Shown here: piece after piece, positions 7,130 to 60,468 of the stretch
How the letters are laid out: each line of letters opens with the position of its first letter
How positions within the stretch are numbered: position 1 is the first letter of the stretch
NCBI GenBank assembly: GCA_949130485.1
Contig: OX422192.1
Location: forward strand, 778,218 to 842,217
Direction: 5' to 3'
DNA: 64,000 nt
Origin: Agelas oroides
Lineage: Eukaryota; Porifera; Demospongiae; Agelasida; Agelasidae
Program-made: the position numbers and the translations under genes
Notes under the pieces: generated by a model
Told to the model about the DNA's origin: nothing
Database searches by the model: none
The model's input: the letters and a program-made list of their open reading frames with translations, nothing else

Positions 7130-7283
7130 GGTTAACATTGCCCCATGAGGTTGCCACAGACCTGACTAAATTGTAACTGATAAAAGCATATTGTATGGCT
7201 AGCTATTACACTACTGCATGTATACAAACTCAACGGATGACAACAGATTACTATTAGTATTACTTGACCATACCATATAGAGT

Positions 7284-7385
7284 TAGCCTCGTTCCCAGGC
7301 CTCCCCCGGTTTTACCTTCCGCTCCTGTGTATTATTGTGAACGCAAACGGAAGGTAAAAATGGGGGAGGCCTGGGAACGAGGCTA
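7284..7385. mobile_element. 102-bp inverted-repeat element (TAGCC family) with 9-bp target repeat
   Basis: Ends TAGCCTCGTTCCCAGGC and its complement flank a nearly full hairpin. The direct repeat ATATAGAGT lies on both sides (7275-7283 and 7386-7394). The interior (grttttaccttccg type arms) differs from most other family members. Confidence 0.85.
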
Positions 7386-7579
7386 ATATAGAGTAGCTTG
7401 TGGTGATAAAGGTAGTGTTGCATACTGTGTAAGGCAGAGAAACAAGCTGGAGGATAGATAATGATGGAGCTCCCAGAGGATACGTACAGATGCATGGTCC
7501 ACATTTAATCAAAATGATGATGCAGCACAAAATTAGCAGGATGACTGTATCTAAAGTAAAGTAGCTATATAGCCTCAAA

Positions 7580-7697
7580 TAAGCCTCATTCCTAGGTCTC
7601 TCCTTTTTTACCTTTCGTTTGCATTCACTTCCACTCGGACCACTCCCATGTATTATTGTGAACAGGTAAAAGCGGGGAAGGCCTGGGAACAAAGTTA
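7580..7697. mobile_element. degenerate TAGCC-family inverted-repeat element
   Basis: Begins aagcctcattcctagg and ends ggcctgggaacaaagtta. Its interior resembles the element at 7284-7385 (ttttacctttcg arm, tgtattattgtgaac). No clear direct repeat remains. Confidence 0.55.
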
Positions 7698-8246
7698 TGC
7701 TAAAATAGCAAAGCCATGCATGGCTGCCGTGCACTGTTTAAAGTCACCACATGAGACCACCACAGACCTAACTAGATCAAACATGCACATAACTTGATGG
7801 CAATAATTTTAGGAGCTAGATTGAAAGTAGCTACTGTAAGAGACATTAAGTACGTGCTTTGACTTGTGAGCCAGTATATTAGTATGTTACAGCAGACAAT
7901 TATTTGGAACTACACTCAAGCTCAATTTTTTTTTTTCCGGACAATGTGCTTGAAAGGAAGATGATGAGAATCTGCCACTGGTAGAGAGGATAAGTGGAAT
8001 AAGTAATCCAATCCAAATCTCCATGGAGAAGAAGCCTCCTGTAGGCCAGCCATTGTGGCTATTATCTAAAGCCTTAGATTGCAGTGGGTTATCACCAGAT
8101 AGCTACACAAGTTATTCATGATTATGAATATCATCTCAGGTACTACCAGGTACTCTACTATCTATGATGATCTTACACATGTAGCAAAATTCAAATTCAA
8201 ATTCTGTGACCTTGCAGAACCAAAGTTAGTACCTGGCTGCTGAGTT

Positions 8247-8283
8247 TCTGAGTGTCTACTGTCCACAGAGTGACAAAACAAAG
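8247..8283 (+). other. putative non-coding 5' exon end of TRAF copy D
   Basis: Identical to 200-236. The donor GTGAGT starts at 8284, and the intron would end at the CAG before the ATG at 8635. Confidence 0.5.
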
Positions 8284-8349
8284 GTGAGTTTACTGCTGGA
8301 CATTAATGCCAATAATGGAACAAGAATGTTGATGAGAAAAAGACGTTGA

Positions 8350-8421
8350 GATCCAGCCAGGATTTGAACCTGAGTCTTCTGAATTCCGGTCAGATGCTCT
8401 TACCAACTGAGCCACTGGAGC
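8350..8421 (-). repeat. tRNA-like (tRNA-derived) sequence, copy 3
   Basis: Identical to 303-374, as part of the duplicated block. Confidence 0.6.
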
Positions 8422-8634
8422 TCTGCCACTGGAGCAGAGGATAGGGGGCATTTATCCATAGGCACAGTTCAATTCCCATGCTGGATCCCTGGTACTAGAT
8501 GTAGGCATTGACTCTGCATAGAAAGTACCAAAGTATTGTTTGCTGCAACCAGTAGACTAGCAGCAGCCACTTTGCATTATTGCCATCCTTGTACAGTTGT
8601 GTTACAACATAGCTACATGTTGTCTCTGTGACAG

Positions 8635-9949
8635 ATGGCTTCAACTGGTCAAATGACTGGTGGATATGACTGCAATTTTGTGGAGATACCACCAGACAAG
8701 CTGATCTGTCAGATCTGCCTTCTGGTATCCGCTACCCCACACCAAGTGACATGCTGTGGGAGGGTCTACTGCAAAGACTGCCTGAATGAACACAAGAGAC
8801 ACTCCAGGGCTTGCCCAAACTGCCGAAAAAGAGGTCGTAACTTCCCTGACACCAGAGGTGAGTGAGACAGTCAGTCTCGTAGCTTACTAGCTACAAATTC
8901 CTCCTGGATTTCTTCCCCTAGGTGAACAAGAAGTCAAGTCACTTAAGGTCATGTGCAGCAACTGTGGAAATGGGTGTCGCTGGGTGGGAGAGTTACGATC
9001 CCTGGACAACCATCTCATAACATGTGCATATGCACTCCTCAGCTGCCCAAATGAGTGCATGGAGAACAACGAGGAAGTGAAGTTATTACATTATAAGCTA
9101 GCCCACCACCTCCAAACGTGTGCCAATCGCCAGCACCTGTGTCCCCACTGCAAGGCCACTGGAAGATACCGTGACATAACCACCACTCATCTTGGCATAT
9201 GTCCAAGGGTCAAAGTCCCCTGTCCCAACAGTGAGTGTTGGGCCTCAGTACCTCGCTGTGATCTTTCAAAGCATCGATCAACGTGTCAGTTTGAGGCAGT
9301 GCCATGCAAATATGCAGAAATTGGCTGTAAAGAAGTGTCGCTTCGCAAAGATTTAAAACAACACGAGAATGATGTAATCCTTCATCTTCACCTTGCAATA
9401 GAGACTGTCAATGAACAGCAGAAGAAGATGAAGGTAATGGATGAAAAGGTAGTATCCAGTCAAGCTGGGCCACGTGTCTTTAAATTCCCAAAGTACTACC
9501 AACACAAAACATCCTCACAAGAATGGTACAGTCCTCCATTCTACACCAGCCCTGGAGGTTACAAGATGTGTATCAGGGTCGATGCTGATGGGTTTGGTGA
9601 AGGTGCAGGTACTCATGTCTCCGTGTACACTTGCCTTGTGCAAGGAAGGAATGATGACAGCCTGCCATGGCCCTTCACAGGAGAGGTGACCATCACCCTG
9701 CTCAACCAACTGGAAGATGAGAACCACCACACACGTACAATCTCATTTCCACAATACAATGTCGCAAGCATGAGGGTAGTGGATGATGACCGAGGGAGTG
9801 CAATCGGACATAGCAAATTCATTTCCAAAGATAAACTCGATTATGATGCAGCAAAGTATTGCCAGTACCTGAAAGACGATTGTCTCTGTTTTCAAATTGA
9901 AGTAGAAGCTGCTGAACCGGTGAAGCCCTGGCTGACATGCACCATTTAA
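8635..9949 (+). CDS. TRAF-like RING/zinc-finger/MATH protein, copy D
   Basis: Exons 8635-8857 and 8922-9949 join in phase 1 to give 416 residues. The order is RING-type finger (CQIC ... CCGRVYCKDC ... CPNC), TRAF zinc fingers, a short helix (NEQQKKMKVMDEKVVSSQ) and a MATH domain with EWYSPPFYTSPGGYKMC and LPWPF motifs. The RING His position is Arg. It is the full-length counterpart of copy A, whose first 1,369 window bases are identical to it. The expected role is cytoplasmic TRAF adaptor function in receptor or stress signalling; the partner receptors are unknown. Confidence 0.88.
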
Positions 9950-10059
9950 AGTCATGGTGTCACCACAGACCTAAGTAGATCATCACACACCTTATGGCGA
10001 TAATTTTAGGAGCTAGGTTTAAAGTAGTCACTGTAAAATACATTATGTATGTGCTTTGA

Positions 10060-10470
10060 CTTGTGAGTTTTATAGTGTGTGGATGATGATTTGGAATTTG
10101 GTTCAAGCTCAATCAGGGCTTTCTGTTTCTCTGCCAATGTGTTACTGATCATGTGAGAGAAAAAGAAAACAGGCTCAAGTAAAAAATCTCTGCCGTGGTC
10201 CTTCAAAGGAGAGTTTTCCTTCACACACAAAGGTGGGATAAGGACCATTACACATATGCAAATTCATTTCCGCAAGAGTGTGGAAAACAGGAGGGTGGTG
10301 GATAGTGAGGGAGGTGTAAGTAGATCAAATACCATCAAGGAGGCTAATGAGTTATGTCACCTTCCCAGCAGGTGGAATATTTTACTTAATCCAAGGCCTA
10401 ATCTCAAGTCGATCTCTGTAAACCAGGCACTGTGGCCATTCTCTTCCTACATAAAGCAGTATAAGCCATC
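10060..10470 (+). pseudogene. decayed MATH-domain relic downstream of copy D
   Basis: A ccgtggtccttcaaaggaga block, aatTCATTTCCgcaagag and ggagggtggtggatagtg echo the MATH exon of the intact copies with indels. The whole stretch parallels 1550-2080. Thus both A and D are followed by the same dead unit, so the relic predates the split of A and D. Confidence 0.6.
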
Positions 10471-10599
10471 CCTATTCATGATTCATGGCAATATATGATC
10501 ATGAATATCAGTAACTAACACACATCGTTGCTTACAACATTCAAAGTATGTGTCCTCCCCCATATTTTACGTCACATACAGAACCAAAGTTAGTAGCTA

Positions 10600-10643
10600 G
10601 TCATTTTCTGAGTGTCTATCGCCCACAGAGTGACACAGCACAA
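10600..10643 (+). other. putative non-coding 5' exon end of TRAF copy E
   Basis: Homologous to the leader before copy B, ending CACAA before GTAAGT (donor at 10644). The intron is only 84 nt and lacks the tRNA-like insert. The acceptor TAACAG abuts the ATG at 10728. Confidence 0.5.
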
Positions 10644-10727
10644 GTAAGTTTACTACCAGACATGTATCTATTGCCATCATTGCCTTTACAATGTAGTTGC
10701 TGTTTCATTCTGAAGTCTCTGTAACAG

Positions 10728-12115
10728 ATGGCTTCCAATGCTTCCAACACTGGCGGGTATGACTGCAAGTTTGTGGAGACACCACCAGACAAACTGGTCT
10801 GTCAGATCTGCCTTCTTGTATCCGGTACCCCGCACCAAATGACATGCTGTGGGAGGGTCTACTGCAAAGTCTGCCTGGATGAACACAAGAAACGCTCCAC
10901 TATTTGCCCAAACTGCAGGAAAAGAGGACACCACTTCCCTGACACCAGAGGTGAGTGAACTTCAGACAATTCTTAATCCATGAAACAACATACTGCTTAA
11001 CATAACTTCCTGTTGTCTGTTCTTCTTCCGAGGTAAGTGAACTTCAGATGGCAATACATGCTGCATAACCCTCCTCTATTTCTTCCCGAATAGCTGAGCA
11101 GGAAATCAAGTCACTTAAGGTCAAATGCAGCAACAGGGAAAATGGGTGTGACAAGGAAGGGGAGTTGCGATCCCTGAACGACCACCTCACCACATGTGGA
11201 TATGCCCTCCTTCGCTGCCCAAACAAGTGTATGGACAAAAATATATTACGCCGTGACTTAGACCACCATCTCAAGAACAAGTGTCCCAATCGCCAATACC
11301 AGTGTCCCCACTGTAGGACCACTGGAAGATACTGTGATATAACCACCACTCATCTTGACACATGTCCAAAGATGGAAATCTCCTGCCCTAATAGTGATTG
11401 CAAGGTCTTAGTGGCTCGCTGTGAGCTTGCAGATCACCGATCAAAATGTCAGTACGAGGCAGTGTCATGTAAATATAAAGGAATTGGTTGTACCAAAGAG
11501 CCACTTCGTAAAGATTTACAGCAACATCAGGATGATGAAACATTTCACCTCCATCTTGCGATAGAGACTGTCAACAAACTGCAGGAGGAGATGAAAGTAA
11601 TGGCTGACAATGTTGTAGCTGGTCGAGCTGGTCCATGCGTATTCAATATGACAAAGTTCAACCAACACAAATCCTCCAAACAAGAATGGCGCAGTCTTCC
11701 ATTCTATACCCACCTGGGAGGGTACAAGATGTGTATCAAGGTGTATACCAATGGGTTTGGTGATGGTACAGGTACTTATGTCTCAGTGGGTGCCTATCTG
11801 ATGCAAGGGAGGAATGATGATAATCTGTCATGGCCCTTCACAGGAGAGGTCGCCTTCACACTGCTCAACCAACTAGCAGATGAGAATCACCACACACGTA
11901 CAGTCTCATTTCCACAAAATGGTGCGGTAAGCAGGAGGGTAGTGGATGGTGAGATGGCTCCCACAGGATATGGATGGTCTAAATTCATCTCCCATGATCA
12001 GCTTGATCACAATGCAGACCAGAATTGCCAGTACCTGAAGGATGACTGCCTCCACTTTAGAATTAAAGTGCACGCTGCCAAACCAACAAAACCCTGGCTA
12101 ACATCCACTGTTTAA
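10728..12115 (+). CDS. TRAF-like RING/zinc-finger/MATH protein, copy E
   Basis: Exons 10728-10950 and 11094-12115 join in phase 1 to give 414 residues. The RING-type finger has CQIC, CCGRVYCKVC and CPNC. TRAF zinc fingers follow, then a helix (NKLQEEMKVMADNVVAG) and an intact MATH domain. Near the first TRAF finger the conserved Trp segment is replaced by CDKEGE, shared only with copy C. The 143-nt intron contains an internal repeat of GAGGTAAGTGAACTTCAGA, so a second potential donor lies about 85 nt after the first; the same arrangement exists in copy C. Expected to be a cytoplasmic signalling adaptor. Confidence 0.88.
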
Positions 12116-12768
12116 AGCTGCCACACAAGACTTCTAGCCAAATTGTAACTGATTGTAATAAGTGATAATAACATGTGCAGTGATACTTACCTGTTGTGTT
12201 ATGGTTATGTGTGATATAAAACAAATTGCCACCATCATCAAATACCTTAACGTGGCACGGGAGGTCTCAGACCTCAAAACCAATCCCAGTGCAGATCACT
12301 TCTAGTATTAGCCTCGTTCCCAGGCTTCCCCACTCCAGAACACAAATAAGCCACAGAGCTTGTATCTTTTCTTGCGTGAGCATGACATAATCAATAAAAG
12401 GACCAGAGTTTTAGAACAGAAAGATGATGTTTTCAACCAACTATGCGTTCAACGCTCAGTGTGTATGATATTCACCCCCTTGATAGCTAGATATGTGTAG
12501 TAAGTTGCCTGCTACCTTTGCTCTTTCTGATGCTCTATCTCCCAGGCCTTCCCCGCGTTTTCTGCATAAAAATCTGGAGGCAGGAACAGTCTGGTTCCCA
12601 TACACTTGGTTTTGGGAATGAGAGTGCACATCTGCCTTGAACTCAAAAGCAGCGACTTTGTCACCGCCTCTACCTCACCCAGACTTTCCAGCGGATCGCC
12701 TTCAAACTGTCGCAGAGCGTCCCACAACCTTCGCCACTCACTCCTTCCCGGCCATCACTATAGTCCAG
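12116..12768. other. spacer with conserved antisense open frame
   Basis: No sense gene is seen. On the minus strand about 12620-12740 encodes LWDALRQFEGDPLESLGE and a following EAVTKSLLL. The same peptide with changes recurs on the minus strand at about 17450-17540, again a few hundred bases upstream of an HSD17B12-like gene. It may be a divergent upstream exon or just duplicated promoter DNA. A half TAGCC end lies near 12308. Confidence 0.4.
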
Positions 12769-12907
12769 TAGCCTCGTTCCCAGGCCGTTCCCGCCTCCAG
12801 TTTTTGATCGCTTGCAGTATACTGCAAGCGATCAAAAACTGGAGGCGGGAACGGCCTACTGCAAGCGATCAAAAACTGGAGGCGGGAACGGCCTGGGAAC
12901 GAGGCTA
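12769..12907. mobile_element. TAGCC-family element with internally duplicated arm
   Basis: Ends TAGCCTCGTTCCCAGGC and its complement enclose a hairpin whose right arm (the tgcaagcgatcaaaaactgg region) is present twice in tandem. Flanks are ATAGTCCAG (12760-12768) and ATAGTCCGG (12908-12916), a 9-bp target repeat with one change. Confidence 0.8.
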
Positions 12908-13011: not shown

Positions 13012-16000
13012 ATGTCTCTGAATACAATCACTGAAGCAGTATGGGAACTGCTGTCCCCAGAGCAATGGAGGGTCGTGAGGTGTGCTATATACATTAATAG
13101 CTAAAAGAGGTACAGAGGAACAAAATTAGTAAATTGTGTTCCAACTGTTGGACATTTTTAGCATAGTATCCCAGGTATATAATCTCACAAGCCAGACCCA
13201 AGCCTCACATTCAGTATCACACAAGGGGAAGGAAGGGTATGGCGATGCTTGGTAGTGCTCTTCACTGGGATTGGCTTGAAACACTACCTTCCCCCCCTTC
13301 CACAACACCCATCCACACATATGCACTTCTGTTCATAGAAATGTAGCAGCCATTTTTGGTGCTGGCATTCTACTGAAGTGGATGCTGAAGCAGCTGTGGC
13401 AGTTGTCGGGCGGGTTCTGTGCCTTCTTCCTTGCTCCATGGGGCATCTCACGAATCAACCTCAAGAAATATGGACCATGGGCAGGTGGGTAGGCCAGTTC
13501 CCATGTTTTCATTCCACTGCTGGTCTGATTCCCATGTTTCCATTCCACCTCTCATTCTAGTGGTGACGGGAGCATCTGAGGGTATAGGAAGGGGCTATGC
13601 ACTGGAGGTAAGTATGACATCGCTGTGTGTTGCTGTGTCGTCAGTTACACACATGGTTTGAGGGTGGCTTCATTTCCAGCTGGCCAGACGAGGGCTGAAT
13701 GTGGTCATCATGAGTCGCTCTCAGGACAAACTGCAGAAAGTGGCCGACGAGATTAGTGAGTTGGTTATGTCTTTGTATCCTCACACTTCCTCCCCCTGCT
13801 CTCCTTACTTTTTCTCACTCACCCTCTTCCCCTCTTCCTACTCTCTTGCCTCCCACCTCTCTACTTTTCTCACATTCTCATCCCCTTCCCTCACTCCTTC
13901 ACACCCTTCTCACTCCCCCCTCCCCCCCTTTCCTCAGAGGAGAATTATGGTTGTGAAGTTCGTATCATTCCAGTTGACTTCTCTGAAGGTCATGAGCTCT
14001 ACCCTCATATAGCCGAGGAGCTCCAGGACCTAGACATTGGGGTTCTTGGTAAGGTAGCATCTTTTATTTAGCAACTCTCAGCCGTTGGCCCTGCTGTGAG
14101 GCTTGACTCACTCTGTGTGTGTGTGACTGTTACTTTAGTAAACAACGTCGGATATAATGTGGGTCCAGACTACTTTCTTGAAATACCAGAAGAGGTGAGT
14201 TGTGAGGAATAGTGATTATGCATATTTTAACATGTGCCAACTCTTGTTTCCATAGCGACACTACAAGATTGTTCAGATCAACTGTCACCCTATAGTACAG
14301 GTAAGGTGTTTGCAGTGTGGTGAGAGCATCAAGTGTAGTTCTCAAAATGTTTTCCTCCCCCAATCTACCTCATTTCATCCTCCTCCTCCCCCCCCCCCCA
14401 TTCTTCCCCATTTCATCTGCTCCTCACTCTCCTCACTCTTCCTTGCTTCTTCCCTTCTTCCTTCAGATGACCCACATGCTACTGCCAAAGATGGTAGAAA
14501 AGTGAGCACTATAGTTTCACACTTACTTGTCTCCAACCCCAACTCAATTCTCCAATACTCCTGGTCACCAGACCTCAATTTGCTTTGTACTACACGAGTC
14601 TCATGCCCAGACCCCACCCCCGAAAAGCGGGAAGAGGGTCTGGTGTTCTGAACGACTTTTCTTGTCACATGGGGCGGGGTAAAATGGCATAAAGAATGTA
14701 ATTATTGCATTCTGCATGCAGCATGCAAGATGGAAGAGTAAATGATACCAAGCTGTGCCGTTTGTATGATCACTCTGCCAGTGTCCAAACAGCGTCGCTC
14801 CCTCCATCCAGCTCCCTCTAACAAAACAGTTACCTTGCTAATGTTAGTATTAGTCCGGAAATAGAGCTTGCGAATGGCTCAGTGTGGAAGGCATGCTTTT
14901 CAAGGCTACGACCTACCTTGCTACAGCCGAGAACATAACAAATGAGCTGTGAGAGCAGTTTCCTAACTAGATCTCGTCCTCGATTGCCTACGTCATCGCA
15001 TATAACTATGCGTTCTGCAATCTGATTCGAGCTCTCGGATCGGGGAGCTACCCACCCCATGTGACAAGAAAAGTAACTCAGAACACCAGACCCTCTCTCT
15101 CACATGTGCGGGGAGGGTCAGGGGACGAGACTAGTACTACACTGGTGGATTAAAGGCAAGGTGCTGAGTTGATTGCAAACCACAAGGAATACTTACAAGT
15201 ACCAATTAGTGTACAATCTGTAAGTTCCAATTAAGGCAGTTAGAAGGCAGTGAAGCCATGTTTAGTACAAGCTATAGCATGGAGTACAGTACGCCATATG
15301 TAGGGATGACCCCGAAAAAAATGGCGGCCACATTAAAAGTGCACAAATGACATGCTCGAAATGTCTGCATTAGATTAGTCAACGGCTTCCATGAGCCATA
15401 TCAGGCATTATCGAGTGCTTCCATGGGCAACAGGACCGTTAACTTTGCTGGAAAGCATCGCTGAAGTACCAGACCGGCGAGTCGCACAAGATGTAGGGAT
15501 GGTGTGAAAGTGTTGTGGTGTCATTCCCATCTTGTTTGGCTGGTTTTTGAGGGTTAATTCCATCCCTACATGCACTTGTTTTCATTCAGAAAACTTTTTT
15601 GTGACTTTAGGTATACTACATGCAGGCTAGCGGTTACAGGATATACACTTGACAGTTATTCAATTAGAAGCCTCAGCTGAGCCTTGGCTTCCTGGTGTAT
15701 ATCCTGTAACCACCGCTAGCATAGTAGTTTAGCTATTACATATTCTCCCTCACACCTACACACCTAGGGGTCATGGGGTGGTGGTGAACATCTCCTCTGC
15801 TGCAGCCGACCATCCTTACATGTTCCTAAGCAGCTATTCTGCTACCAAGGTAGTATGGTGACACAAAATGTCTTTTAATTAAAAGGAGTTTAGACATTTA
15901 TTGCTTGAAATTATCACTGGTAAATATGAGCTGTCCTCATTTCAGAGGTTAATTATTGAGGTGATCAATTTGGGACACTTTAGAATGTCCTGAATGAATG

Positions 16001-17216: not shown

Positions 17217-17349
17217 TAGCCTCGTTCCCAGGCTCTTGTGCGGGGGAGGAGGAAAGAGAGCCTGGTACACACTATTCGTGCATGCGCCAAGTTCCCTTGG
17301 TAACCTGCATTCTAGTCTGCCCAAGCACGAGAGCCTGGGAACGAGGCTA
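17217..17349. mobile_element. TAGCC-family element with 9-bp target repeat
   Basis: TAGCCTCGTTCCCAGGCTC and its complement at the ends. GTGTTCTCA is repeated at 17208-17216 and 17350-17358. Only the terminal 20-25 bases pair; the centre is unique. Confidence 0.85.
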
Positions 17350-26120: not shown

Positions 26121-26128
26121 TATATGGT

Positions 26129-34361: not shown

Positions 34362-37300
34362 ATGGCGCTCTTCAGTCAGCTGGTGGATCTGTTTTACTCC
34401 GAGCAGTTCTGCTTTTACAGGCAAGCAGCTTGTGGTGAATAGTCTCACGGAGTTTGGGGGCTTCTTGGAGTGTATAATTTTTATGCAACAGGACTGACAA
34501 ATGTACTGGTCTGATATAGTCGGGTGTAACCCGACCTTCGCGCGAAAAACGGAAGGTCGGGTGCCAGCCCTATACCCGGATTTGTTCTGAACTGTTATGT
34601 AATAGTTATGAATACTGGTATATGTTATGTAATTTGCGCATAGTGCATGCACGTGGCGGTTGAAATACTGCAATCTGATTGGACTGCAATATTTTTGCAG
34701 CAGAACAAATCCGGGTATAGGGCTGGCACCCGACCTTCCGTTTTTCGCGAAGGTCGGGTTACACCCGACTAGGTCTGATTCCCATGACAGATCTCCTTCT
34801 CTCACTCCCTCCTCTGCAGGAACGCTGCTGCAGTGGTGGGTATAGTGCTTGTGCTCAGGCTGTTGCTGAAGCACATGTGCCAGTTGTTGGGTGGGTTCTG
34901 TGCCTTCTTCCTGGCTCCATGGGGCATCTCACGAATCAACCTCAAGAAGTATGGACCATGGGCAGGTGGGCAGGCCAGTTCCCATGTTTTCATTCCACTG
35001 CTGGTCTAGTTCCCATGTTTCCATTCCACCTCTCATTCCAGTGGTGACGGGAGCATCTGAGGGTATAGGAAGGGGCTATGCACTGGAGGTAAGTATGACA
35101 TCACTGTGTGTTGCTGTGTCGTCAGTTACACACATGATTTGAGGGTTGCTTCATTTCCAGCTGGCCAGGCGAGGGCTGAATGTGGTCATCATGAGTCGTT
35201 CTCAGGACAAACTGCAGAAAGTGGCCGACGAGATCAGTGAGTTGGCTGTCAACAGCTGCAGTTTGTATCCCTCACACTCCATCACCCTCCCACCTTTTTT
35301 CTGCTTCACTTACCTCACACACTCTTCCCCCCACTCCTCACCCCCACTCCCCCACCCCCCTCCAGAAGAGAAGTATGGCCGTGAAGTCCGTATCATTCTA
35401 GCCGACTTCTCTGAGGGTCCAGAGCTCTACCCTCATATAGCTGAGGAGCTCCACGATCTCGACATTGGGGTTCTTGGTAAGGTACCATCTTTTACACAGT
35501 AATGTTTGTGTACTAGCTCCCTTCTCAAACCTTTGCTGCGTGGCTGGACTCATTCTCCACATGTTTGTCTGTTTAGTGAACAATGTCGGCTATTACCAAG
35601 GCTATGCAGGATACTTTGGTGAAGTTTTGGAAGAGGTGAGTTGTGAACTAAGATTTTGTCAACAAATTTATGCAGCTTACTGGTGACTGGTATGGCTTTC
35701 TGTTCAGGTGCACTACAAAACTGTCCAGATCAACTGCCACCCAGTGGTACAGGTGAGAGCAACAGTCATGATACACTATACTATATAGTACTTACCCATT
35801 TTCTCCTCCCCCTCTTCATTCTCTGTCCTCCTCCCTCTTCCTCCTTCCTCCTCTCTATTCCCTCCTTCCTCTTCCCTCTGTCCTCCCTCTTTCCTCCTTC
35901 CTCCCTCTTTCCTCCTTCCTCCCTCTTTCCTCCCTCTTTCCTCCTTCCTCCCTCTTCCCTCCTCCCACTTTCTTCTGTCCTTCCTCTTCCCTCCGTCCTC
36001 CCTCTTCCCTCCTTCCTCTTCCCTCCTCCCACTTTCCTTCCTCCCTCTCTCCCTCCCTCCCTCCTCTGTCCTCCCTCCTCCCTCCTCCCAGATGACTCGT
36101 ATGCTACTGCCAAAGATGGTCACTAAGTGAGCACTTGTTTCTTACCCCCACTCACCAGCTTATAGTTAACTTTCATACCCTCACACATCTTCAATCCTCT
36201 CCCACCCATATGTATTCTGACCTAGCCTCATTCCCAGGCCTGTCCTGTGTCCCGGTTTCGGTCACTTCTCTTTTGCACACACTGTAAACTGTCATAACAT
36301 CAGACAGGGGAGGAACAAGGCTTTTCAGACCACTTTGTCTTGCTTACACCTTCCCCTCCCTCCTCATCCCACATATACCCACACATAGGAGACGTGGGGT
36401 GATTGTAAACATCTCCTCTGGTGCAGCTGATCGTCCCCTATCACTGCTCACAGTCTATAGTGCCACCAAGGTATGCCCTCATGCATGGGGCAGCTGCTTT
36501 CACAAGAGATAGGCGGCATGTTTTCTAGCAACTCCCAACACATTAATGGTGATGTTCTGCAAGAGCGAGAAAGGAATCTATACAAAAAGATATCCGGGAT
36601 CCAGCTGGGACTCAAACCCAAGACCTTCTGAATACTAGTTAGATGCTCTTACCACTCAGCCACTTGGACCCCTGGCAGAGGAGCAGAAGACGAGCTACAT
36701 AGGCAGCATTGCCTAGAGGATTTCAGGGATTTTTTCTCTGAGCACCCATGAGCGCCCTACTGTTGTTTTCAGTAATCAAGCTTCTAAATCTCCAAGGAGT
36801 TTCAACGTCCACCAGGAAATTAGGGACCTTAGTTTGTGACGGAATAGCACAAAGAGCTAGTCTAGAAACAAGGCGGGCTAAGATGAAGTGGCATGCAGTC
36901 CCCCAACTGTGGTAATGAAACAAGGCGGGCTAAGATGAAGTGGCATGCAGTCCCCCAACTGTGGTAATGAAACAAGGCGGGCTAAGATGAAGTGGCATGC
37001 AGTCCCCCAACTGTGGTAATGAAACAAGGCTGGCTAAGATGAAGTGGCATACAGTCTCCCAACTGTGGTAATGAAACAAGGCGGGCTAAGATGAAGTGGC
37101 ATGCAGTCTCCCAACTGTGGTAATGAAACAAGGCGGGCTAAGATGAAGTGGCATGCAGTCCCCCAACTGTGGTAATGAAACAAGGCGGGCTAAGATGAAG
37201 TGGCATGCAGTCCCCCAACTGTGGTAATGAAACAAGGCGGGCTAAGATGAAGTGGCATGCAGTCTCCCAACTGTGGTAATGAAACAAGGCGGGCTAAGAT

Positions 37301-39257: not shown

Positions 39258-40558
39258 TGTGTGTGAATCATTGTACAGGTATAAGAATTTGAACATTGAT
39301 ATCTTCTCACTAACTGACCTGCTCCTCTTTACCTTGCTACTCAATACCTCTCACCCACCGTGCATCCCACCTCTCACCCCTCTCACCCCCATCCTTACCA
39401 TCCCACCTCCCTCCCCTCTCATCCCCATCCTACCACCGTGCATCCCACCTCCCTCCCCTCTCACCCCCATCCTTACCATCCCACCTCCCTCCCCTCTCAC
39501 CTCCCTCCCCTCGTATCCCTGTCCCACCCACCCTCTTACCCCCATCCTTACCACCCCACCTCCCTCTCCTCTCACCCCCATCCTTACCACCCCACCTCCT
39601 CCCCTCTCACCCCAATCTTATCTTCCCAGGATGTTAAGCCACTTATGGTTGCTACTGCAATGTCCCGTTCTTCAATTTCATTGAGTGGTTTGTCAGAAAA
39701 TTCTCGTTTCATTGCGGACCCCATCACCTATGCTCGTGCCGCTGTTGCCACCATTGGTATCCAACATACCACATATGGTTACTTCTACCATGCACTGCAG
39801 GTGGGGATCTCTGTTACCATGGTTACAGAATCTTCAGACAACAACTTTCATTGTGTGTGTGTGTTCATAGTACACTATAGATGGGATGTTCTTTCAAACC
39901 CCTGGACAAGCTTTCCATCACTTGTAAAGTGGGAGAGCTAGGGCCTGGTATCTTTCCTCAGAAAATGAAAAAATTAAACAGCAAATTTTCAGACTAAACA
40001 GCCAGCCTTTCACGTGTTGTTCAACTAACTACACACTTTGTGTGTATGACAGTTGTCCCTGCTAGCTAGATACATAGATTACCTTCACTCTTCTCGCCGT
40101 TCTGAGCTCCACTTAGCCTTGTTCCCAGGCCCAGTTTAGGCCCAGTTCAGGCCCGTTCGAAATATCGGAACCTTTCAAACGGGCCTGGGACCGAGGCTAA
40201 GCTCCACTCCACTTACAATTATTAAAACTACTGTCCTATATACGTATGTATTCTGACATCACTCACATGAGAAACAATACCACACTCCTTCCTGCTTCAC
40301 TGAGCTGCAAGTGACAGAAAGCTGGTGGAACGAGGCTATAGGGGTGTTTATCAGTTCAGTGTTTACCACACACACCACTCTCCCACACACTCTCCCACAC
40401 ACACCACTCTCCCACACACTCCCCCTCACACTCCTCCTCCTCACACACAGATGTATCTGGCAAGACTGTTTCCAGTGTGGCTACTTGATTGGATACTATG
40501 GAAATCAAACCTGAGTGTAAGAGATGCTTACCTCAAGACCAAAGCCAAGCAGAAATAA
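34362..40558 (+). CDS. HSD17B12: HSD17B12-like very-long-chain 3-ketoacyl-CoA reductase, gene J
   Basis: Twelve exons keep phase: 34362-34420, 34820-34965, 35042-35088, 35161-35236, 35366-35476, 35577-35635, 35708-35752, 36092-36126, 36389-36470, 39036-39101, 39630-39800, 40451-40558 (334 residues). It has the anchor helix (AAAVVGIVLVLRLLLKH), [22 protein letters not shown] and a KAKQK C-terminus. Exon 11 carries a small in-frame insertion (SSISLSGLSENS) compared with genes F and I. Intron 1 is GC-AG as in gene I and contains a MITE. Intron 9 is 2.56 kb because of a minisatellite. No lesion seen. Confidence 0.88.
34517..34771. mobile_element. 255-bp MITE in intron 1 of gene J
   Basis: Long inverted arms (about 70 bases): TAGTCGGGTGTAACCCGACC at the left and its complement at the right, continuing through ccagccctatacccggattt. 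Flanks GGTCTGATA (34508-34516) and GGTCTGATT (34772-34780) form a 9-bp target repeat with one mismatch. Central AT-rich spacer without coding capacity. Confidence 0.88.
35790..36091. repeat. pyrimidine (CTTCCTCC)n tract in intron 7 of gene J
   Basis: About 280 bases of nearly pure C/T on the sense strand end at the exon 8 acceptor. It acts as a very long polypyrimidine tract. Similar but shorter tracts precede exon 8 in the other copies. Confidence 0.85.
36598..36670 (-). repeat. tRNA-like (tRNA-derived) sequence in intron 9 of gene J
   Basis: Minus strand shows GTGGCTGAGTGGTAAGAGCA (D arm), TCTAACTAGTATTCAGA (anticodon arm, AGT anticodon position with U33) and GGGTTTGAGTCCC (T arm), with acceptor pairing GGTCCAA to CTGGATC partly kept. 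Related to 303-374. Probably a SINE head or tRNA pseudogene. Confidence 0.5.
36865..38944. repeat. 52-bp minisatellite, 40 copies, intron 9 of gene J
   Basis: The unit begins gaaacaaggcgggctaagat and ends with cccccaactgtggtaat. First and last unit starts (36865, 38893) are 2,028 bases apart, exactly 39 periods, so 40 units stand with no net length change. Variation is confined to a few sites: ggcggg/ggctgg, gggcta/gggtta, gtggca/gttgca and cccc/ctcc. Confidence 0.95.
39110..39265. repeat. (TG)n microsatellite, intron 10 of gene J
   Basis: About 150 bases of TG repeats with few interruptions begin shortly after the exon 10 donor. Confidence 0.92.
40114..40199. mobile_element. 86-bp TAGCC-family element with 9-bp target repeat
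   Basis: TAGCCTTGTTCCCAGGCCC and its complement at the ends. AGCTCCACT is repeated at 40105-40113 and 40200-40208. Within intron 11 of gene J. Confidence 0.87.
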
Positions 40559-47812: not shown

Positions 47813-49462
47813 TAGTCTGGTCTAATGCCTATACCTGACCTGTGTATCCTGGAATGTGTAATAAGTGGTTACTAGGACTACGCATGCGCATGATGCCTCG
47901 CGCCGCTCCAAGCGCCATGCGCGGATGGGGCGCGCGGCGCAGGTGTCAGGCGTTGCTCGTTTAGTATAGTGGAGTCCAAAGAACAACGGTAACGTGAAGA
48001 GTGAGCCTAAATACCTGGCTTGTGAAGAATCTCCAGTACGTGCTTTCTACTTTTGAACTCTTTCTTGTTCTTCTGTCGCTCTCTTGGCTTTCTACGGTGG
48101 GCTGACTTCTTTGCTTTTTTGTTTTGTCTCAGCCGGAGTCAGCAGCCGTCGGCTGCGTTCAGCACTCGTTTATGCACTTCGCTCCGCAAATACGTACGTT
48201 GCGAAGGGCCAGTCGCGCTGTTCTCCCCGTCCTCCGTCGGCAAGAAATGTCGTCCTGGCTTCGTCGTGTAATGTACGTATCCGATATCCTGCCTGGGCGT
48301 GAGCGCAAATTGACATTCCGAGCGTGACCTCAAATTGACATTCCTAAGCGTGACCGACACGTACGTACGCACGTACATTGCGAGAATAGATCCCTCATTC
48401 AGAGCCTCGCGCTAATGCGCTCGGCAATTACTAGGAGTACGCATGCGTATGATGCCTCGCGCCGCTTCAAGCGCCATGCGCGGATGGGGCGCGCGGCGCA
48501 GGTGTCAGGGGTTGCTCGTTTAGTATAGTGGGAGCCCAAAGAACAGTACAACGTGAAGAGTGAGCCTAAATACCTGGCTTGTGAAGAATCTCCAGTACGT
48601 GCTTTCTACTGTTGAACTCTATCTTGTTCTCTTCTTGCTCTACTGTGGACTGACCTCTTTGTTTTTTTTCTTTGTCAGAGTCGCTAGCCGTCGGCTGCGT
48701 TCAGTACTCGCTTCTGCACTTGACTCAGCCAAATACGTACGTTGCGAAGGCCCAGCCGCGCTGTCCTCCCGTCCTCCGTCGCCAAAAACGTCGTCCCAAC
48801 GTCGTCGTGTAATGCACGTGGTATCTGATATCCTGCCTGGGCGTGACCTCAAATTGACATTCCTAAGCGGTACCGCAAATTGACATTCCTAAGCGTGACC
48901 GACACGTACGTACGTACATACGTACGCACGTACATACGTACGCACGTACATTGCGAGAATAGATCCCTCATTCAGAGCCTCGCGATAATGCGCTCGGCAA
49001 TCAGCTTTATGAATGTCATTGTAATGCGGGAATCGATGTACAGCCCTTCTGCCTGCGTCTGAAACGCTATTGACAAGCAGTACGATATCTTGGCCTTGTC
49101 AGTAGTCAATACTGGCGGTAAACTCCCAGGGTTGACCTTATCAAACGGATGGGGAAGGAGCCAAGCGGAGACACTTCCCTTAGCCCTTCGGAAGAACAGC
49201 GATGCCATCACGCTCTTGCAGGAAGGTAGTTTGCTAACTTTAGCTGTTCTTCTTTCAAGCTATGGTAGCCTAAAGTCGCTAGTAAGCAGCCTTTGCGCTT
49301 TGATTCAAAGCTATGACGTTATCATCCGGATGTTCTTATTACATTCCCGTGACGTTCTGCGATCTGATTGGAGCTGCAATATATTTGCAGTGGGGACAGG
49401 TCAGGTATAGGCATTAGACCAGACCCTCGCGCTGCGCGCTTGGGTCTAGCTTCGCCAGACTA
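47813..49462. mobile_element. 1.65-kb inverted-repeat element with 9-bp target repeat
   Basis: Starts TAGTCTGGTCTAATGCCTAT and ends with the partly interrupted complement (ataggcattagaccaga ... CCAGACTA). GGCCTGACC is repeated at 47804-47812 and 49463-49471. The centre is CpG-rich, unlike the surrounding AT-rich DNA. It consists largely of two direct repeats of about 540 bases (see separate entry). It lacks a recognisable transposase. Confidence 0.85.
47876..48990. repeat. two ~540-bp direct repeats inside the 1.65-kb element
   Basis: acgcatgcgcatgatgcctc at 47880 recurs at 48435 (one base changed), followed in both by ggcgcgcggcgcaggtgtca, tacctggcttgtgaagaatc, an agccgtcggctgcgttcag block and an acgtacgtacg-rich end. 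Both copies contain overlapping open frames (48053-48271, 48560-48883) with a shared SRRLRS(A/V)L peptide, but indels between copies break frame and no domain is recognised. Confidence 0.8.
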
Positions 49463-50497: not shown

Positions 50498-53400
50498 ATG
50501 GCTGCAATTACACTGGAGGATCTGTTGGAGGAAGTCGGTATACATCCTGAGAAACTCAATGCGTCCATCAGTGATGATCACCTTCGTGCAATAGCTATTT
50601 TCCTGACTTCATGGCGAAATGTTGCAACATACTTAGAGCTCAGTGAAAATGACCTGGATGATGTTGAACAAGAAGGCAAAGATGAGCAAGATAAGAGGCT
50701 AAAAGCACTTCAGAAATGGAAGGGCAAATGGTGCTTTAGAGCAACCTACAAGAAGCTGGTAGAAGTTCTGTTACAACTAGCAAAGGCAGATATTGCCGAG
50801 AAAGTATGTCACCTTCTGAAAGGTAAGTCTAAACCACACTCCAAGATGCCCAAAACTAAGATAACTTGCATCTCGTGATGTAACTACGTATAGCTTTGTG
50901 TATGGTGTATGTGTATGTTCATACATCACCTGAAAGTCCAGAACAAAGCCATGTTGGTATATAGTAGTATTGCACAAACGTATTCAGATCCTTTTTTGTG
51001 CACCATGGCCAGGAACCACAGACTCTCACAGGGTAGCGACAGAGGCTCGACTGCAGGAGAAGGATGCTGAAATTGAGAGACTGCAGCAAGAATTAAAATC
51101 ACAGAGGGTATATAGCTTCTAGTTCATGCACTGATATTAGCACTGAAAGTGTGACTATTGTATACATTGTAATAGCTACTTACACTCACTGTAGATAGAG
51201 ATGGTTACCCAACTTCAGCAGAAGGATGCGCGACAAGGCACAGAAGTCCAAGAGAGGACTCTTCAACTCAACAGACAACAGCGAGAACTGCAAACACTGA
51301 GAGTAAGGAAATAGATGTTCTACTGTAGGAAAGATTATTAATAGTGTTGTTTTAGTTAACTAAAACTAAAACTAAAATATATTTTAGTAACAGGTTAGCA
51401 CTTTTAGTAATTGAACTAAAACTAAAACTAAAACTTGCTTCTGAGATGCAAAATAACTAAAACTAAAACTAAAAATTGCTTCTGAGATGCAAAATAACTA
51501 TAACTAAAACTAAATATTGTTCCAAGACATGAAAGTGGATGTCATTCTGGGAACGACGCACAACAGTATTTAGTATATGCAGAAAAACCTGTTTTAGATC
51601 CAAGATATTCTTGTTCTCCTACAAATAACTATAATCAAAACTAAAACTAAGTCTAAAGTGCCCAACTAAAACTAAAACTAAAACTTGCTTCTGAGATGCA
51701 AAATAACTAAAACTAAAACTAAAACTAAAACTAGTCTCATGGATGAAAACAACTAAAACTAAAACTAGTCTCATGGATGAAAACAACTAAAACTAAAACT
51801 AGTCTCATGGATGAAAACAACTAAAACTAAAACTAGTCTCATGGATGAAAACAACTAAAACTAAAACTAGTCTCATGGATGAAAGCAACTAAAACTAAAA
51901 CTAGTCTCATGGATGAAAACAACTAAAACTAAAACTAGTCTCATGGATGAAAACAACTAAAACTAAAACTAGTCTCATGGATGAAAACAACTAAAACTAA
52001 AACTAAAATAGAAAACCAGTAACTAAAACAACACTAGAAAGATAGTGACACCCCCATGCATGCTCTGGCTGTTAGGAGGACAGAGCAGAGTAAGTACATT
52101 ATTGGAACATGTATTTTGAGTTGTTAATGCATTTCCATGTATACAGACCTCCAGAGATGAGAATGTAGCTGCAATACAGTCTCCATCTAAGAAGCCAAAG
52201 GTGAATTGACCTTTGACCTAATGTACTGTATGAGTTTTGATAAACCATCAATTTATCTACATGCCAAACTCTGCACAGACTTACAGTAATTAGTTTGGCT
52301 CTACAAAGTTTCAGGGAATTTCACATTTTTGACCTTGCATTTGTAAGGTAGCCTTGTTCCCAGGCTCTCCCCACGCGCGAACGAGACTGCAAGCGACGGA
52401 AAGCTGGGTGGGGCCTGGGAACAAGGCTATTGTAAGGTGTGTCTTTTGTCATTTTGGGTTACACTAACAATTGCAGCAACTGCTGCTATTCACTAGCCTC
52501 GTTCCCAATCTCTGTTGTGCGGCATTAGCAATACACTGACTAACTGCTTGTAGGGATATGGCACAATGTTCATTACTGTGGTTCCTCTGTTTCAGCTATG
52601 CTCCCCTAGTGAGCTGAGACTGACGTGCAGGAGGCTGCCAGATATGCCAATAGCACTGTGCAACCCATATTCAGTAACAGTAGACACATTTGTTTATATG
52701 ACACACAGCGGATATGACAATTCTGTCATACACAAATATGACTCACAAACACAACAGTGGTCTAAACTACCAGAATATCTATATTGGGGCTTCACTATGA
52801 CTGAACTCAACAACCAGCTTGTGCTAGTTGGTGGTCAGGATAAACCCACTCGAGATAAGTACACCCTTAATGCGCCTAGGACAAGAGATGCTGTAGCTGT
52901 GTACTCTACATCACAGAGGAGCTGGGAACAACCCTACCCTCCAATGAACACACCTCGTCAGCAACCAGCTGTATCCACTTACCACCACCATCTGGTGGTG
53001 GCAGGTGGGTGGGATGGTGGTGACCTAGCTACAGTAGAAATCCTCAACACATCTGTCAGCCATAGTCAGTGGCTCTCCATCACAACAATGTCACTCCCCA
53101 TGAACTGCAGTCAAATGTCATCTGCCATTGTACATGATATGTTGTACCTTCTAGGTGGCACACTGTGGAAGCAAGTACTCAGTGTGTCCCTCCCAGCTCT
53201 TACACAAACTGACAAGCCACCTACACAGTGGCGCACACTCCCCGACGCCCCGCTGGAGTACTGTACGGCCATCGCTGTCCATGGATCTCTGTTGGCAGTG
53301 GGAGGAAAAAGCCTAGGTTGCCAACATAGCTCAGCCATCCACGTCTACGACCAGGAGAAGAACGTGTGGACCAAGTTTGGAGACTTACCTACTGCACGAT

Positions 53401-53516: not shown

Positions 53517-54691
53517 TTATACTGTGTGGTTATGGCCTTGTCCTTGGCCATGTGCTTGGATTTTGCGACACATCATGTTCATTGAATCAAGTTATGCACA
53601 TACATATACACCTTATGTCCAGTCATGTCTTCTAAAATAATATACTTGCTTATTGTAAGGTTGTGCATCCATCATACTCATTATCAGACCATAATAATAT
53701 CATGACTTTGTAGTTTTCATAAAGAGAGTGAAGTTCAAATTTAATGCATGCATCCATCTGTGTTATATTAACTATCCTGCAGTATGCATATATGGCAATA
53801 CCATGTAGATAATTTGGGCACACTAATGTTAGGCTTCACCCTCAACAGGAATACATGGCACTGCATGGGAATCCAGGTTAAGGTTGGGCGTGTGAATAGG
53901 ATATCAATTCCGGTGTTGTTTCCAGTGCCACATGTACATATTCCAACTGATCCAGTTCGACAAGGATCAAGCAATGTACGTATGAATATATCTGTTGCAC
54001 TGTTGAAGATATTGTCTATAATATGAACAAGACGTGGACTTTTGTGTTGGGACCTCTGTTGTAATATCACAAATTGCTGTACCACTCGATCCCTCCCTAG
54101 CTAGCTGCTTTTTTGTTCCACAGAGGTGCAGGGGCATGTGCATGTACGTAGCCTTGAGCTCATTCCCAGGCCATCCACATTCGATCTTTGTAAGTGGCCT
54201 GATGCATGTGTCCATCTAAGTTATGTGGTGCAGTCTAACAATTGTTCTGCAGTTATCATGAGTGAGCATAAATGTTAGTATTAAGCATTACCATGCAGTA
54301 GCCATGACCACATTTTGTGCTATAAGTAATCTTTACCCTACCTAGCTCGAGTTCAACAACAAGCACTTTACATTACGCTGTAGTCTCATCCCCAGTCCCC
54401 ACACACACACATGCATCATGGGATGGGCATGAGACTAATAATGCTGCTGCACTCACAAAATGTAGATTGTAATGAACAAGAGTGCTTTGCCATAATTGTC
54501 CCAAGACTTCCAGTATAACATCACAATTAAATTGCCAGTCAAGAAATGTAGCAGGTAGCTACCTTGTAAGACTCTGATTGTTATAAAACCTTGGGAACTG
54601 TTTACATTCCACCATTCCATATTCCATTCCAATGATTAGAGACACCCCAAAAGAGAGAAGAGTTACAACTTTTCAAATTTTGCACGAGAAC
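53517..54691. other. 3' flank of gene L and spacer
   Basis: No gene recognised. A half TAGCC-type end lies near 54150. Confidence 0.4.
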
Positions 54692-54753: not shown

Positions 54754-54943
54754 CATTGGAACAGCGTCCGCTAACAAACATTTTCTAATGGCAGTCAGTG
54801 ACTGCAGTGTGCTTCAAAAAGTGTTGCATGCAAAAAAATAAAAATAAAAAATAGCAAAAGCAATCAAAAACAAAACTCAAATAGGATTACTTGTGTTCAT
54901 GTGTTTACAGTTAAACTTCCAACCATTCCAGTTGAGAGGTGAT

Positions 54944-57839: not shown

Positions 57840-59348
57840 CTGCAGAGGAGGGAGTGAGAGGAGGCGATCTGTCATGGGAATCTGTCATCATCAGACCTGT
57901 ACATTTGTCAGTTATTTATTTCTTGTTATCCATGCATTCATTGCAGCTGTCCTCCCCCCCTCCCCCCTCCCACCACACACACACACACACACACACACAG
58001 TCAACAATGTTGGTCTTAGTTATGAGTATCCTGAATATTTCCTCCAAGTCAATGAAATGGTATGATGTACACAGTGATTGCTATGGTTACCTAGGCAATG
58101 CAGGTTGCTTAGCATCAAAATCTTGAAATGGCTAGCACATCAACTGTTGCTATCATAACCAAATAACAAGAATGATCGTGATTGTGCGCTCTTGTTTGGG
58201 CACACTCTTATTGGCTATTTCGCTTCATGTATTATTGGGAATGTAAACTGAAGAGAATGGGCACCTGAGAATGAGGCTGCAGTGTTGCTAGGAAGTATGT
58301 TGAGCTAAACAGGATTGTTGTTCATAGTAGGGGTTCCACTGTATGGATGAGGAGCTCCAGGACCTTGACATTGGAATTGAAAACAAGACTGCAGTGTTGC
58401 TATGAACAATGATCCCAGTGGGATCATTGTTCATAGCAACAAACATTCAATTTACCTTGCTCAGCTGAACATGTACAGGAAACTTACATACCTTAATGTT
58501 ACTTTTAATTGCGCATACTGTTTTTAACAGAAACCAACATTAATTCAACACATCATTATTGGAAGTGAAATCTCCCTTATTTACCTGAACACTGTACGTT
58601 TCCATGGTATGTTTCTTTTGTCTTATCCTCGTACCCAGTGGTGTCGCAACGTAGTGGAACTGAACTGCCAAGCCACCGTACAGGTTAGAGTTTCATCTTC
58701 AACTTTTCATACACACTTTGGTTTGTGCGTCAGGCAGCGCATGTGTTTTGCTCTCATGGTATTTTCACAGATGACTCATATGCTTCTGCCTCGGATGTTG
58801 GACAGGTGAGACAGTGCTGCACCATCTCCTCCACACATACACACTGCACCTTCCCCTCCATGCGTACCATACCCTCTCCCCACACACATTACACCCTCCC
58901 CTTCCACACACACTACACAGAAAAAGTGGTATTATTGTAAACTTGTCTACCATTGGCGCTCTTGGTCCTTGCGCTCTGCTGGCGGTGTACACTGCATCCA
59001 AGGTACATGGAGTCACTCTATCCCCTCCTCCACACACACCCTTCTCCCTCCACACCCACACCCACACACACACACATCTCATAAACTACACACACACACC
59101 CTCCATATACACCCATACTCTTGTGCGTAATATTGAAAGCTAGTGACTTGTACATAACATCTTTCTTCGTTTATCTTCCGCTTGCATTCACAATAATACG
59201 CGGGAGCGGAAGAGTGGCAAAAATGGTGGAGGCCTGGAAACAAGGCTAGGGAGATACGTGAACACAATCAAGTAGAATTCAGTCATGTTTCAGCAAACAA
59301 GTTTTCGATAAGAAGTACTCTCCATATACATATGAACAACCACTACTC

Positions 59349-59399
59349 TAGCCTCATTCCCAGACCATGTGTCCTACCACATGGTCTGGGAATGAGGCT
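59349..59399. mobile_element. 51-bp TAGCC-family hairpin
   Basis: TAGCCTCATTCCCAGACCAT pairs with ATGGTCTGGGAATGAGGCT around a short centre. Gene G has a partial counterpart at 20242. Confidence 0.7.
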
Positions 59400-59836
59400 G
59401 TTGCTACCCAAGCTCTCAATCCATTGTACAGTACATGTCTAACCTTTGACCTTTACTTGCTTTGCCAGATCTTTGTGAACTATTTTTCTGACAGTTTGCG
59501 AAGTGAATATGGTTCTAGAGGAATCATTGTGCAGGTAAGTGTCCATGATGAATAATGAAAATGTTTGTTACAAACTTCACTAACTTGTCTTTCCCACCAC
59601 CTCTGTGGCTCTGCACACACAGTCCGATGGGGACGATGACATCACAATACAATAAACACAAAAGTGACACAACATCCAGGAAGACAAAGAGGGGGAGTAT
59701 CCGGCTGAGGGAAGTGTTTTGCGTTCTTAGTTCAGAACAAGTGTTTTTGATTTGCAAACACTGCAGCCTCAGACAGACATTATCCAAGACCCTTCTAAAT
59801 AATTCCCCTCCATCATCTACCAACCTACTAGCAATG

Positions 59837-59928
59837 TAGCCTCGTTCCCAGACTCTCCCCACGCGTGAACGACCGCTTTTCCGTACTGCAAGCGACGGAA
59901 AGCTGGGCGGGGCCTGGGAACGAGGCTA
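59837..59928. mobile_element. 92-bp TAGCC-family element with 9-bp target repeat
   Basis: TAGCCTCGTTCCCAGACTC and complement at the ends. CTAGCAATG repeats at 59828-59836 and 59929-59937. Gene G lacks it at the paralogous site (about 20,960), which reads ctagcagtgttgttttag uninterrupted. This is a clean empty site. Confidence 0.9.
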
Positions 59929-60468
59929 CTAGCAATGTTGTTTTAGTTATACTATAACTATTACTATATAAAAATATAACTTAGCTGTTTTTGCATGCAA
60001 CTAACAACTAACTATTGACTAAAGCACAGTCATGTGATTATGTAATAAACAACACACACACACGATTTGCTTAATATTTCTGTAGTAATAATGATAATAA
60101 AGTAAGCAGGAAGGATCGAGTATCCCCAGCCTCCTCCACCCATCCCTGTTGCTCCTCCCCCTCCATCCTCCCACACACGCACACCTGCAGGGTTGTTTTC
60201 TGGGGTTGCTACCTCACAGTGTATATGCTCACTTGGCAGGGAAGAATATGCAGAAAGTACGACTGAAGCTGCTCAAACGAAGAGCCATGGCCAGCAAACA
60301 GCAGTGAGGAAAAGAGAGAGGAGGGCAACTATATTGGCTTGCAAGCTGAACTTGTATATCCATTCACTTGTGATCTCGTTTTCTTCAATCACATTAGTCT
60401 TGTTCCCAGACCATTTCATCCAACATGTACAGTGGAACCCCATTTAAAGGACACTCCTGAATATTAAG

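Follow-up and report, generated by a model that had tools for sequence, protein, structure and literature searches.

A large and recently active system of miniature, foldback-like inverted-repeat elements with TAGYC ends in the sponge Agelas oroides

Introduction

Why do transposable elements that share their ends differ so widely in their middles, and what moves them? These questions are raised by a 64,000-nucleotide stretch of the Agelas oroides genome (contig OX422192.1, positions 778,218 to 842,217; the whole stretch is called the window below). A first-pass annotation of its sequence had described eight elements with TAGYC/GRCTA inverted ends, 9-bp direct repeats at their borders and unrelated centres, and had likened them to Mutator-like elements (MULEs) that carry captured DNA. 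It had also proposed a genome-wide search for the tips, a tabulation of flanking repeats, a clustering of the interiors and a search for a MULE transposase between the same ends. Here we follow up these proposals in the window and in the genome (259 Mb in 141 contigs; C1 and C9 denote contig numbers, and L-numbers denote stretches sampled from the genome). The system is real, large and recently active, and it resembles both miniature inverted-repeat transposable elements (MITEs) and foldback elements. It is marked by its abundance, the length of its target duplications, the very short size of its members and, in some of the longer ones, ends that are built of modules.

Results

TAGYC tips are abundant throughout the genome

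All eight elements were found where they had been placed, with inverted TAGYC/GRCTA ends (Table 1). Their 9-bp flanking repeats are perfect in six cases (7284, 14596, 17217, 40114, 47813 and 59837) and agree at eight of nine positions in two (12769 and 34517), and the changed first base that had been ascribed to one of them is the G with which the 14596 element begins. No open reading frame of 150 amino acids lies fully inside any element of the window, and the short elements are too small to code. Allowing up to four mismatches to the 17-mer that begins with TAGYC, we counted 31 forward and 24 reverse termini in the window, compared with zero in a single shuffled window counted on one strand. 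In the genome, the same 17-mer with at most one mismatch gave 39,497 matches, where a control with the reversed pattern gave 1. A second tip pattern, TAGTCTCGTNCCCAGAC, gave 14,956 matches versus five in its control; the two sets of matches overlap in part. In view of the window counts against the shuffle and of the genome count against the reversed control, the abundance of the tips cannot be due to chance.

Contig 1 seemed at first to have a region devoid of TAGCC tips, a reading that was rejected, as matches of 100% identity that include the tip lie inside the gap, at C1:2200873 and C1:1529812. Two gaps on this contig (1.22-3.08 Mb and 4.33-6.00 Mb) hold no exact forward TAGCC site among the matches listed, and the first of them reflects, at least partly, the selection among these matches. 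At two places the tip sequence has turned into a minisatellite, with a period of 24 at L028 1851-2227 and with ten copies at 59-bp spacing at C1:3270065-3270612. The positions of tips and MULE matches within C1:5434784-5614113 recur at a shift of about 133.1 kb, which suggests that a large segment was duplicated.

The elements are flanked by nine-base target duplications

For the tabulation of flanking repeats we scanned 264 kb, consisting of the window and twenty 10-kb stretches, for TAGYC/GRCTA pairs spaced 30-3000 bp apart. Among the 1,916 pairs, exact flank matches were found 12 times at nine bases, twice at eight and once at ten, while three offset controls gave no flank match of seven bases or more. 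Six of the 12 exact matches lie outside the window, five had already been noted by the first-pass annotation and one (25928-28179) has poor tips. The latter spans 2,252 bp and has TAGTC ends with the exact 9-bp repeat ATGTCAATG, but only about 5-7 bases are common to its two tips; it may be a chance pair or a distant class. Without use of the tip motif, a scan for an exact 9-bp repeat next to similar ends returned 11 pairs, eight of which start with TAGC or TAGT; the other three come from a single tandem repeat in L019.

Of the 100 matches listed genome-wide, we next took the 39 that are exact copies of the 17-mer and lie on contig 1, a set that is biased toward young copies by the selection of exact tips and is partly redundant (flanks are common to L067, L068 and L074, and L039 duplicates L008). 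For 18 of the 39 an opposite end lies within 185 bp and the 9-bp flanking repeat has no more than two mismatches; in 11 the repeat is exact. Under the rule applied to the control the number is 17, since L044 needs a looser tip rule, compared with a control mean of 0.115. In all sampled sequence, including the contig-1 tip sites, 56 closed short elements were collected; the duplication is perfect in 17 and has a single mismatch in 11, where 0.44 would be expected at this stringency. When 43 elements were picked for having a 9-bp repeat, the repeat was exact in 26, and in none of these did it extend to a tenth base. The most telling test was a single prediction. When the nine bases that precede the left end at C1:17521986 were combined with the consensus of the tip, the resulting 18-base pattern had one exact match in the genome (14 places at up to one mismatch), and this match closes an element of 636 bp. 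As for the target site itself, G has a frequency of 0.44 at position 1 in the 43 elements with strands pooled; a bias computed from raw flanks was discarded, because the L028 minisatellite dominates these flanks. Taken together, the tip counts, the pair scan, the contig-1 closures, the 636-bp prediction and the short-element set support one inverted-repeat transposon system with 9-bp duplications across the genome.

Members are very short, recur at independent sites and include recently moved families

The 28 short elements with a duplication of at most one mismatch measure 46-139 bp. L045, at 51 bp, is the smallest whose duplication is perfect, and L054, at 56 bp, is a perfect palindrome; the elements in L028 (46 bp) and L014 (53 bp) have one mismatch each in their duplications, and the flanks of the L014 element are GT-rich. 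Longer members range from 255 to 833 bp, in addition to the 1,650-bp element of the window. Similar interiors recur at independent sites with different duplications (L057 and L006 1501, 7284 and L069, 59837 and L056, at 0.72 identity). MITEs are short elements of high copy number that are bounded by their tips and have duplications of a fixed length. The elements studied here likewise combine inverted ends with a duplication of fixed length, small size with high copy number, and interiors that recur at independent sites.

Two families have moved recently, with best copies that are 98-100% identical: for the L049 end (185 bases) the best 40 of 1,579 candidates are 99-100% identical, and for the L072 end the best 40 of 634 candidates are 98-100% identical. 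In the L049 family the distance between paired arms is nearly constant, which makes the elements about 397 bp long. At C9:1302500-1305846 three L072-type ends form a tandem array, in one orientation and with a spacing of exactly 1,581 bp.

The 1,650-bp element was probed by each of its arms. The right-arm query gave 44 matches, of which the best 18 (the window copy included) are 94-100% identical. With the left-arm query, the tip is absent from 39 of the 40 scored matches, which indicates that most of the interior is another high-copy repeat. A long coding version of this family was sought by pairing left-arm and right-arm matches and none was seen, the left-arm query having matched the other repeat.

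Some of the longer members have modular ends with hairpin cassettes

In some of the longer members the end follows a plan in which the tip TAGYCTCGTNCCCAGRC is followed by a cassette of mostly 16-50 bases, by GYCTGG, which is the complement of the CCAGRC within the tip, and by an inner arm. We classified 202 termini: an opposite tip is met within 160 bp by 94 of them, GYCTGG occurs at 20-83 bases in 33, and the other 75 show neither feature. Thirty-three of the 108 unclosed termini hence carry GYCTGG at this distance, a set that includes a few decayed short elements, compared with 4.4% of random stretches. Both TCACGTGA and TGACGT occur in six of the 33 inner arms.

To compare the two arms of an element we tried nine long elements, of which seven could be parsed and two could not; L014 1778, L018 975, L031 4852, L006, L007 and L002 were left outside this comparison. 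Six of these seven have cassettes that match less well from arm to arm than the tip and the inner arm do. The identities of tip, cassette and inner arm are 0.94, 0.40 and 0.82 in L003, and 1.00, 0.58 and 0.78 in L072, where the cassette is just over the shuffled 95% limit of 56%. A crossed pattern was evident among 12 hand-picked TAGCC termini, in which one cassette is found with different inner arms and one inner arm with different cassettes. For example, L010:3484 and L072:640 agree at 0.93 in the cassette and at 0.68 in the inner arm, while the values for L006:2083 and L004:1864 are 0.53 and 0.88. When cassettes were folded with DNA parameters and compared to simple base shuffles that retained the basal stem, the mean z was -2.03, with 14 of 29 below -2. 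Cassettes of the TAGTC class share words resembling CCACCCTCTCAC. In this pattern the cassettes resemble hairpins that can be exchanged. In the 1,650-bp element no cassette was seen on the left and one on the right, at about 49425-49445.

Material of the same kind is found in the centres of short elements. In the first 24 bases of their arms, 37 of 65 match a cassette of a long element at 0.75 or more, compared with 1.4 in shuffles (both arms counted). Inspected by eye, the elements 59837-59928 and 52349-52429 and those in L056 and L060 combine the two end cassette types of L072 at differing joints, and L022 1863-1964 combines them in reverse order. As read from its sequence, the element 12769-12907 starts with 51 bases that resemble an L007 end, continues with the reverse complement of these bases and has one extra 37-bp tandem copy. 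Because short arms match cassettes and short elements combine the L072 types, much of the interior variety looks internal to the family. Clustering the interiors at a threshold of 0.72 identity placed 55 distinct short elements in 38 clusters, 29 of them singletons. The centres, held to be unrelated by the first-pass annotation, are related in part through recurring cassette families.

MULE domains are numerous and were not seen within TAGYC ends at ten loci

The proposed transposase search returned at least 119 MULE-domain matches in the genome, together with 58 FLYWCH matches, some of which adjoin MULE domains, and 34 KDZ-domain matches. We read ten of the MULE loci (L029, L030, L031 with its flank L035, L032, L033, L034, L036, L037, L038 and L058), which represent about seven kinds (L029/L030, L031/L036, L032, L033, L034, L037/L038 and L058; the comparison covered all but L058). 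None of these ten, out of at least 119 matches, showed the MULE gene enclosed by a TAGYC pair that has a 9-bp repeat. This negative is weak evidence, because the ends of the MULE elements are undefined in L032, L033, L034 and L058, as is the left end of L031/L036. The first-pass annotation had named as evidence against its proposal a transposase of another superfamily between the same ends; none was found (P and hAT were not searched for). In favor of a Mutator-like mover, nine bases fall within the 8-11 bp target duplication of MULEs (PMC6446971) and are common for MULE-domain transposases (PMC3169594).

A multi-copy MULE family, represented by L030, has the ends GGGATTCGC and a 10-bp direct repeat. 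In L037 (2554-3557) and L038 (2400-4079) a gene with FLYWCH and MULE domains lies near inverted arrays of the 15-bp unit CCCARAATGTCTAAT, in a Phantom- or foldback-like arrangement. Two candidate links between tips and MULE genes were rejected. The MULE at C1:17525298, at a site chosen for its nearness to a tip (3.3 kb), is unlinked, as the 636-bp element stops before it; and the TAGTC end near the L031/L036 MULE is part of a nested 371-bp element and is not the end of the MULE.

Other features of the window

The located features are listed in Table 1. Genes arrayed in tandem from 844 to 12115 of the window form a family whose products carry TRAF zinc finger and MATH domains, as judged from the one copy that was searched; the copy at 844-1380 is shorter than the one at 8891-9949, and Kelch genes lie beyond this array. 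Five tRNA-like Rfam matches, possibly tRNA-derived repeats, all lie outside the eight elements, and the best three are found about 0.5-0.6 kb ahead of TRAF gene copies.

Table 1. Features located in the window, numbered from its first nucleotide (TSD, target-site duplication)
Feature	Position	Strand	Flanks and remarks
Element, 102 bp	7284..7385	.	TSD ATATAGAGT, 9/9; interior clusters with L069 and L015 2332-2429
Unpaired TAGCC terminus	12309..12325	+	Followed by a cassette and the inner arm TATCTTTTCTTGCGTGAGCATGACATAAT
Element, 139 bp	12769..12907	.	TSD ATAGTCCAG/ATAGTCCGG, 8/9
Element, 538 bp, TAGTC class, long arms	14596..15133	.	TSD GTACTACAC, 9/9
Left hairpin cassette of the 14596 element	14613..14637	+	CCAGAC to GTCTGG; arm comparison
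Right hairpin cassette of the 14596 element	15092..15116	-	Arm comparison
Element, 133 bp, left terminal module	17217..17349	.	Inner copy GCCTGGTA; TSD GTGTTCTCA, 9/9
Element, 255 bp, variant TAGTCGGGTG class	34517..34771	.	Like layout, cassettes agree at 0.91; TSD 8/9
Element, 86 bp	40114..40199	.	TSD AGCTCCACT, 9/9
Element, 1,650 bp	47813..49462	.	TSD GGCCTGACC, 9/9
Separate high-copy repeat within the 1,650-bp element	47869..49001 (boundaries approximate)	.	Two direct copies, 86% alike
Element, 81 bp	52349..52429	.	Left and right cassette types as in 59837-59928; flanks share TTGTAAGG (8 bp), no clean 9-bp repeat
Element, 57 bp, TAGTC class	54381..54437	.	Flanks 7/9
Element, 92 bp	59837..59928	.	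Left cassette type TCTCCCCACGCG, right type CCCGCCCAGCTTTCC; TSD CTAGCAATG, 9/9
tRNA-like matches (five, Rfam)	302-374, 5483-5555, 8349-8421, 36598-36669, 50099-50155	minus	

Discussion

We think it probable that the TAGYC elements are non-autonomous cut-and-paste DNA transposons of the MITE/foldback type, which a MULE transposase would move in trans and whose interiors would vary by switching or deletion between the GYCTGG and CCAGRC repeats. The transposase, acting in trans and most likely a member of the MULE superfamily, would recognize the tips of about 17 bp and cut the target DNA with a stagger of nine bases. A template switch or a deletion between GYCTGG/CCAGRC repeats, at excision repair or at replication, could then create new interiors. 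One type of switch would swap a cassette between elements. In another, the inner GYCTGG of one end would be joined to the outer GYCTGG of the other, leaving a tiny element that consists of the tips and cassette material; as both tips are retained, such a product could move again.

Several observations weigh against this explanation or parts of it. No transposase was found between TAGYC ends at the ten MULE loci, and half of the short elements (28 of 56) have no repeat at up to one mismatch. A strict GYCTGG is missing from 75 of the 108 unclosed termini, 12 of which are units of the one L028 minisatellite, and 28 of the 65 short-element arms match no long-element cassette at 0.75. The contrast between arms is modest in the 14596 element (tip 0.76, cassette 0.68, inner 50 bases 0.80), and in 34517-34771 the cassettes are alike (0.91). 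Among the six contrasting cassette pairs, those of L010 and L014 only are inside the shuffled range, and those of 14596, L013, L072 and L003 slightly exceed the 95% limit; part of the contrast may hence be due to fast divergence of homologous cassettes. Arms of the L049 family differ by 9-15%, and its best copies by only about 1%. This rules out that arms are generally kept alike within elements. Lastly, we infer template switching from its products only, and plain deletion between GYCTGG repeats yields identical short products.

The identity of the mover and the origin of the interiors can be weighed separately. The mover is likely of the Mutator type, which is our best guess because of the 9-bp duplication length and of the precedent of the nematode family Tm1 (see below). 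KDZ, Merlin and P transposases make target duplications of 8-9 bp, and it is possible, if on the unlikely side, that one of these superfamilies or an undescribed transposase moves the same MITEs. Such a mover would be in line with the lack of TAGYC pairs around the genes at the ten MULE loci, with the 34 KDZ matches and with tips that are unlike those of the L030 MULE family, but no KDZ locus is tied to TAGYC ends and the prevalence of nine bases among MULE-domain transposases speaks for the latter. As for the interiors, one reading, close to the comparison drawn by the first-pass annotation, is that fixed ends take up unrelated host DNA, as Pack-MULEs do. The 38 interior clusters with their 29 singletons and the unmatched short arms are what such capture would produce; yet more than half of the short arms match cassettes, a high-copy repeat makes up most of the 1.65-kb interior, the tRNA-like matches all lie outside the eight elements, and no captured host gene fragment was noticed in the eight window interiors, which were viewed without comparison to a gene library. 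We regard capture as very unlikely to account for the different centres.

The cassettes themselves could also differ with no exchange at all, if they belong to old, diverged subfamilies in which selection maintains a hairpin, as a transposase site or in a transcribed RNA, while its sequence drifts. Pairing that is retained across differing sequences, the shared words of the TAGTC class and the four cassette pairs slightly above shuffles are consistent with drift of this kind. The discordant identities of cassettes and inner arms, and the presence of two unlike cassettes in the recently amplified element L072, fit exchange better, and we consider drift by itself rather unlikely. At the opposite extreme, the ends may be built for exchange: the terminal hairpin, bordered by an inverted repeat of six bases, would be exchanged in one piece each time that repair or transposition copies an end from another element. 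Its sequence would then turn over under a preserved structure, transposons of 50-100 bp would steadily arise, and the mover could be a transposase that has yet to be linked to these tips. This is a speculative proposal, and we would not expect it to hold in full.

A single genome with recent copies shows how very short transposons may arise and why elements with the same tips differ in the middle. A transposon of about 50 bp that has both tips and a perfect duplication sets a bound on the sequence that a eukaryotic transposase may need, and the many parallel products should make template switching distinguishable from simple deletion. Literature searches by the tip words and their complements, for the smallest MITEs and for MITEs in sponges returned no description of these ends in the texts available, and in the same texts we did not meet a small hairpin-framed exchange unit with products of such size.

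Compared with MITEs in general, the members here are very small (46-139 bp), and each tip is associated with many small interior families rather than with a few large ones. Foldback elements have long ends that are self-complementary and repeated internally. They are brought to mind by the self-complementary cassettes and by near-perfect palindromes such as L054 and L052, yet the ends are short and not tandemly repeated. The Phantom subclass of Mutator has an 8-10 bp duplication (PMC6446971) that accommodates the nine bases found here, and subterminal and foldback-like ends are recorded for it (PMC3169594); the FLYWCH-MULE family of this genome differs from the TAGYC elements in having 15-bp CCCARAATGTCTAAT units near its ends. 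In Galileo, a P-type element with long ends, the exchange of end segments between copies was proposed as the source of new subfamilies (PMC3573991), so the principle of exchange is not new; the putative exchanged unit here is a hairpin of 16-50 bp within a much shorter end. The Mutator/Foldback family Tm1 of root-knot nematodes has ends made of repeated motifs of about 14 bp, and one member encodes a Phantom-type MULE (PMC3169594). Like the TAGYC system, Tm1 makes duplications that are mostly of 9 bp, has ends composed of several motifs and interiors that vary, and includes MITE-like members, which are its largest class. While no coding member was found in the sponge, its elements are distinguished from Tm1 by the 17-bp tip, by a single hairpin cassette as the variable unit and by members as small as about 50 bp.

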